A DNA stretch of 64,000 nt. It comes from Methanofollis liminatans DSM 4140 (lineage in GTDB: Archaea; Halobacteriota; Methanomicrobia; Methanomicrobiales; Methanofollaceae). The notes under the pieces were generated by a model. That model did no database searches, had not been told where the DNA came from, and saw nothing but the letters and a program-made list of their open reading frames with translations. Both the position numbers and the translations under genes were made by a program. Of this stretch, positions 38,268 through 39,379 are shown piece after piece (position 1 is the stretch's first letter; every line of letters starts with the position of its first letter). Location: assembly GCF_000275865.1 (NCBI RefSeq), contig NZ_CM001555.1, forward strand, positions 2,072,967-2,136,966, read 5' to 3'.

Positions 38268-38915
38268 ATGCACCACATCGACGTCAGGATCGAGAAGGAT
38301 GTGTACGCGGCGAACGACCGTCTCGCCGCTGCCAACGCTGCCCACTTGAAGGAACACGGGGTCAGGGCGTTCGACCTCCTCGGTGCGATCGGATCGGGGA
38401 AGACGGCCCTGATCGAGCGGCTTGTGCCCCTCCTCGCCGCCCGCGGCCTTGCAGCCGGGGCAATCGCCGGCGATGTCTATGGCGACGACGATTTCAAGCG
38501 GATCGTGGCCCTGGGCATCCCGGCCGTCAACGCCAATACCGGGACCGAGTGCCACCTCGACGCCCACCTCGTCGAGCACGCAATCGACCACCTGCCTCTC
38601 GACAAAATCGACGTGCTCTTCATTGAGAATGTCGGCAACATGGTCTGCCCGACCGACTTTGCCCTCGGGGCCGAGAAACGGATCGTCATCGTCTCCTCGA
38701 CCGAGGGCGACGATGTGGTGAACAAGCACCCGATGATGTTCCGCGGCGGTTCGATCGGCGTCATCAACAAGACCGACCTCGCCCCGCTGGTTGGCTGCAA
38801 TATGGACCGAATGGAGGCGGACATGCGGCGGTACAACCCGGAGATGAAGGTATTCAGGACAAATATGAAGACCGGCGAAGGCGTTGCCGCTCTTCTCGAC
38901 GCCATTATCGAGTGA
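38268..38915 (+). CDS. hypB: Hydrogenase nickel-incorporation GTPase HypB
   Basis: HypB is a SIMIBI-class GTPase that, with HypA, delivers Ni to [NiFe] hydrogenases, needed for hydrogenotrophic methanogenesis. 215 residues: P-loop LLGAIGSGKTALI (~38-50), metal/dimer region AGDVYGDDDFKRI, the Ni/Zn-site HxD segment CHLDAHLVEHA, FIENVGNMVCP (switch), and NKTDL (G4). No N-terminal CxxCGC or His-rich tail. No other hyp genes nearby. Confidence 0.94.
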   Translation: MHHIDVRIEKDVYAANDRLAAANAAHLKEHGVRAFDLLGAIGSGKTALIERLVPLLAARGLAAGAIAGDVYGDDDFKRIVALGIPAVNANTGTECHLDAHLVEHAIDHLPLDKIDVLFIENVGNMVCPTDFALGAEKRIVIVSSTEGDDVVNKHPMMFRGGSIGVINKTDLAPLVGCNMDRMEADMRRYNPEMKVFRTNMKTGEGVAALLDAIIE

Positions 38916-38938: not shown

Positions 38939-38950
38939 GAATATATATAG
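38939..38950 (+). promoter_or_regulatory. TATA box of the S8e gene
   Basis: GAATATATATAG predicts a start near 38971 and a leader of about 30 nt that contains the SD GAGGTGAT (38991-38998). Confidence 0.6.
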
Positions 38951-39001
38951 CACTCTGATAGGGATTATCGGTCTCACAGAACGAACACCTGAGGTGATAC
39001 T

Positions 39002-39379
39002 ATACAGTGGCAAGGTAGATCAGTCCGGCGCCTGACCGGCGGAAGGAACCACCTGGCGAGCGGCAAGAAGCGCTTTGAGCGCGGTCGCGCACCGGCGGAA
39101 ACACATGTAGGCGAGAACAGGAACCGGCTTATGCGGGTTCACGGCGGAGACGTGAAGGTACGGGCGCTGCGTGCGAATGTCGCCGCAGTCTCGAGCCCCT
39201 CGACCGGCGAAACAAAGAAGGTCGCCATCCAGACCGTAGAGGCAAACCCGGCAAACATCAACTATGTGCGCCGGAACCTCCTCACCCGCGGTGCGATCAT
39301 CAGGACCGAGATCGGGCGCGCACGGATCACAAGTCGCCCCGGACAGGACGGCGTCGTCAACGCGGTCCTGATCGAATAA
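39002..39379 (+). CDS. rps8e: 30S ribosomal protein S8e, apparent ATA start codon
   Basis: The 125-residue product is a complete S8e: MQWQGRSVRRLTGGR-like N-terminus, basic middle (LASGKKRFERGRAPAETHVG) and conserved C-terminal LTRGAIIRTEIGRARITSRP. The codon in the start position, directly before CAG TGG, is ATA at 39002; the only upstream in-frame codons back to a TGA at 38990 are GGT, GAT and ACT. An excellent SD, GAGGTGAT, ends 3 nt before the ATA. The next in-frame ATG (39131) would delete 43 conserved residues. Either AUA initiation or a base error/variant must be assumed. Confidence 0.88.
   Translation: MQWQGRSVRRLTGGRNHLASGKKRFERGRAPAETHVGENRNRLMRVHGGDVKVRALRANVAAVSSPSTGETKKVAIQTVEANPANINYVRRNLLTRGAIIRTEIGRARITSRPGQDGVVNAVLIE

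Follow-up and report, generated by a model that had tools for sequence, protein, structure and literature searches.

How translation begins is not obvious for the rps8e gene of Methanofollis liminatans DSM 4140, in which an ATA triplet stands where the first codon of ribosomal protein S8e is expected. We examined this gene within a 64,000-nucleotide stretch of contig NZ_CM001555.1 (the window, to which the coordinates below refer unless labelled otherwise) and compared it with its homologs in Methanofollis, in other Methanomicrobiales and elsewhere in the phylum. The features concerned are as follows.

38268..38915, plus strand: upstream gene for a HypB/CobW-type GTPase (ORF list; Pfam PF02492), the 5' boundary, outside the feature
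38940..38950, plus strand: TATA-box-like element AATATATATAG, a probable promoter judged from sequence, present throughout Methanofollis apart from one variant
38990..38992, plus strand: in-frame stop TGA, which limits the start to GGT GAT ACT ATA
38991..38998, plus strand: extended Shine-Dalgarno (SD) sequence GAGGTGAT, duplex of -12.9 kcal/mol with the archaeal 16S 3' end
39002..39004, plus strand: ATA codon corresponding to Met1 of S8e, the inferred start codon (comparison, alignment)
39002..39379, plus strand: rps8e coding sequence from start codon to stop TAA inclusive, 125 residues with Met1 (TIGR00307, PF01201)

The reading frame encodes a full-length eS8 protein, which scored 145.5 bits against TIGR00307 (curated cutoff 78.25), covered profile positions 4-126 of 127 and also matched PF01201. 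ATA is followed by CAG TGG CAA GGT AGA TCA, and the frame ends with TAA at 39377-39379. The first residue after ATA aligned with the second residue of an eS8 chain of known structure (9o17_AK, 125 aa), which places ATA exactly at Met1. The upstream TGA lies 12 nt away in the same frame, with the codons GGT GAT ACT in between, and no in-frame ATG, GTG, TTG or CTG was present between this stop (38990-38992) and ATA (39002-39004); the earliest in-frame ATG of rps8e is at 39131 (codon 44), deep within the conserved protein. GAGGTGATNNNATA occurred once in the window versus 0.03 occurrences expected. The original prediction had described an ATA at 39002 with a strong SD, preceded by an in-frame TGA at a distance of 12 nt and lacking any NTG alternative, and each of these elements was found again when the sequence was re-read.

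As a simple alternative, the same prediction had offered a G-to-A error in sequencing or assembly, for which nothing speaks beyond the oddity of the codon. The check that it proposed, a comparison of the locus in closely related genomes, excluded such an error: ATA, and never ATG, was found at the S8e Met1 codon in all 12 Methanofollis genomes, which are independent of one another and include complete and draft assemblies; the effective sample is smaller than 12, because three of the twelve S8e proteins are identical. In these genomes the upstream TGA, the SD, positions -13 to -3 (CTGAGGTGATA) and ATA did not vary, in contrast to positions -2 and -1. An error is thus practically inconceivable, and the comparison indicates that the ATA in rps8e is inherited. 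Among S8e codons whose amino acid is conserved in the 12 Methanofollis genomes, the third position was invariant in 23 of 78 (3 of the 12 with a majority A; approximately 25-30%), so that invariance of the A in ATA is weak to modest evidence of selection.

Outside the genus, ATG stood at the homologous codon in the S8e genes read from the rest of the Methanomicrobiales (Methanoculleus, Methanoregula, Methanospirillum, Methanocorpusculum, Methanocalculus, Methanomicrobium and others), and ATG relatives share the spacing and the architecture of Methanofollis rps8e. Two lineages are exceptions, and their non-ATG genes have the same anatomy as that of Methanofollis. The first is family f3, in which ATA was found in G028, G033 and G062 (genus g14) and in G038 (g17), ATC in G013 (g3), ATT in G043 (g3), and ATG in G018, G023 and G058, that is, three G, four A, one C and one T as third bases. 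The second is G138 (genus g33, Methanoculleus family f4), which has ATA. When 232 genomes of the order were scanned for GGTG-N4-7-ATH ahead of the conserved S8e N-terminus, a search that would miss ATH starts lacking GGTG, these lineages were the only ones with matches at S8e. In Methanofollis, g14 and g33, the sequence ahead of ATA contained no in-frame NTG as far back as the upstream stop or the limit of the stretch read; the start in g3 and g17 is ambiguous because of an in-frame GTG at -9. On the S8e protein tree, in which many forks are unresolved, at least four changes between ATG and ATH were needed. As evidence of selection, this recurrence of ATH in other lineages matters more than the invariance of a single A.

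In the rest of the phylum, the family representatives that were read had ATG, save G328 (family f28; L285, offset 1501), in which the S8e Met1 position is ATT, preceded by ATC and located behind GGAG. An odd repeated 20-nt stretch lies upstream of this gene, and its ATT is a candidate start at most. Other ATH matches in the phylum, including ATAAAGTGGCAAGG in family f16, were rejected, as those read out belonged to unrelated genes.

The weak codon was accompanied by a strong SD. Mean duplex energy, calculated with GAUCACCUCCU (the archaeal 16S 3' end, entered by hand rather than taken from this genome), was -12.7 kcal/mol for non-ATG rps8e genes versus -8.2 kcal/mol for relatives in the order that have ATG. 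The difference had a Mann-Whitney p of about 1e-10, uncorrected for kinship. ATG-start rps8e genes of Methanoculleus already had an SD of -11.9, and strengthening in that group was therefore modest. The codon thus lacks an in-frame NTG alternative, is kept across species and has a compensating extended SD at proper spacing. AUN starts are known from bacteria, and rps8e carries the comparative hallmarks of such a near-cognate start. We conclude from these comparisons that translation of rps8e in Methanofollis very probably does begin at AUA, in agreement with the original prediction, whose reading is strongly supported by the sister genomes and by the relatives with ATA, ATC or ATT at this position.

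Whether the codon has a regulatory meaning is a separate matter. The identity of the third base might matter little in these archaea where the SD is very strong, and ATG could have drifted to ATA, ATC or ATT in several lineages under relaxed constraint. All four third bases are indeed found in family f3, non-ATG genes have strong SDs and the 25-30% third-position invariance in S8e looks neutral; however, bacterial AUA/AUU sites with extended SDs lose approximately 90% of AUG activity, which would be costly for an essential ribosomal protein, reversion was seen in none of the 12 Methanofollis genomes, and most Methanoculleus relatives keep ATG despite similarly strong SDs (-11.9). Drift of this kind is the strongest competitor of a regulatory reading and a substantial possibility, which we nevertheless tend to doubt.

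Another explanation places initiation elsewhere. Ribosomes might begin at the out-of-frame GTG that forms part of the SD, 8 nt before ATA, and then shift frame, or they might begin at a codon within the gene. The GTG of the SD is present at -8 in all Methanofollis as part of GGTG, but its use would require a -1 shift in the space of about two codons, and the frame that follows it is not conserved. The in-frame GTG at -9 in the f3 genera g3 and g17, and a leader ORF at leuA of the same order that seemingly requires a +1 shift, count in its favor; against it, the conserved S8e residues start right after ATA and ATG-start relatives have the identical architecture. We consider initiation away from ATA very unlikely.

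The leuA gene (2-isopropylmalate synthase; L329 and L161, G000:C1 around 725345-725800, minus strand; relatives L330-L357) lies outside the window, and neither in Methanofollis nor in many relatives did it have a usable in-frame start. Each of the 29 Methanomicrobiales loci read had, shortly behind a TATA-like box, an ATG ORF of approximately 10-25 codons that lies upstream and overlaps leuA; its frame is such that ribosomes shifting by +1 would pass into that of leuA. The ORF ends in a conserved motif (NCLLCR-stop, YCLLHR-stop, RFLCP...), often with CTT CTT or TTT CTT. Judged by these features, the ORF resembles a site of programmed +1 frameshifting or a leader peptide for leucine; a literature search found no precedent for it. 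The ATC of leuA was rejected as a second near-cognate start, since the conserved out-of-frame leader ORF fits better. A divergent leuA neighbor of the same enzyme family (L337, L344, L355, L356 and L357; mostly family f2) overlaps a mini-ORF that ends in a similar way (MSDYFLCR-stop, MSECFIWQ-stop), but its main frame has GTG.

A changed translation apparatus, with an altered initiator tRNA or general use of AUA starts, might also account for an effect on rps8e across the whole genus. However, the initiator tRNA is a normal CAU species with unchanged anticodon loop and stem in eight Methanofollis genomes, GAGGTG-N4-6-ATA was not enriched in the genome (47 occurrences versus 46 in the reversed control), none of the 30 such sites opened (ORF and near-start context) was recognized as a further AUA-start gene, and the genes neighboring rps8e have ATG ORFs (ORF list). 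The unchanged tRNA and the lack of AUA/SD enrichment therefore point to a gene-specific property rather than a code change, and an altered apparatus is highly improbable. In a 364-kb sample, a codon-usage scan for start-less genes was noisy, missed rps8e itself and had little power, as did SD/codon counts, whose reversed controls were palindromic or biased.

Unusual frames were also observed at other loci. On the minus strand of L159 (offset 7918; G000:C1:480001-500000), a 659-codon open frame begins ATC CTG right after AAGGAGGGATAA, has no ATG, GTG or TTG within 30 codons and probably starts with CTG or ATC. On the minus strand of L157 (offset 6500; G000:C1:240001-260000), a membrane-protein frame extends approximately 83 codons without NTG after the upstream stop and is possibly a pseudogene or a gene with an unusual start.

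With AUA taken as the start codon, we considered how it might be used. The TATA-like box at 38940-38950 suggests that rps8e is probably transcribed on its own, with a leader of approximately 30 nt. This leader had no stable fold (z-scores about +0.4 to +1.4) and no Rfam match, and thus showed no sign of a conserved structured leader RNA of the type used in ribosomal protein autoregulation. In the mechanism that we propose, the Met-initiator tRNA (CAU) would pair with the first two bases of AUA and presumably tolerate the third-position mismatch, and the 8-nt SD at standard spacing (GGTG, 5 nt, start) would keep AUA in the P site. Judging from measured bacterial AUA/AUU sites, initiation would be well below that at AUG and would respond both to stringency, exerted in archaea by proofreading of the aIF1 type, and to the availability of free 30S and initiator complexes. 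S8e synthesis would thereby be attenuated and tuned at initiation, with a putative benefit for S8e dosage. We find this full explanation moderately likely: an AUA start that the ordinary initiator tRNA can use thanks to the extended SD, with S8e synthesis tuned at initiation. That the AUA start was selected for regulation is put forward tentatively, as a possibility toward which we are slightly skeptical.

Bacterial infC, which encodes IF3, has an AUU or AUA start and is autoregulated via initiation stringency. IF3 itself senses start codons, whereas S8e is a structural 30S protein for which we know of no role in start-codon discrimination or selection, and rps8e uses archaeal machinery (aIF1/aIF2). 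On the other hand, rps8e is also an essential translation gene with an AUN start, and the AUA of Staphylococcus aureus infC likewise has an extended SD (PMC13009471). In S. aureus, ccpN and citZ also start with AUA and cvfC1 with AUU, and three tested AUA/AUU sites, with extended SDs, gave approximately 10% of AUG activity in poor medium (PMC13009471). These three genes resemble rps8e in their near-cognate starts, which in cvfC1 and ccpN are conserved together with the extended SD, but they are bacterial and do not encode ribosomal proteins, and their low initiation was measured by reporters whereas the case of rps8e is comparative. Escherichia coli pcnB, with the rare start AUU (PMC9410913), is a non-essential bacterial gene. 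We found no report of an archaeal AUA start, including one on a ribosomal protein gene, in the open-access literature, which does not prove that none exists.

The infC-like control suggested by the original prediction is therefore best described as plausible, in view of the weak codon, the extended SD and the recurrence. A true archaeal counterpart of infC control, in which AUG changed to AUH independently in several Methanomicrobiales, the SD was strengthened and one 30S protein came to gauge initiation stringency or capacity, is a rather unlikely scenario.

If the proposed start is correct, an essential ribosomal protein of archaea would have an AUA start that evolution has preserved throughout the genus Methanofollis. 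Gene finders limited to ATG, GTG and TTG would lose rps8e or shorten its product to 82 aa. The gene would also offer a natural test of archaeal start-codon discrimination, with regard to both aIF1 and SD strength, for which ATG, ATA, ATC and ATT variants are ready among its relatives.
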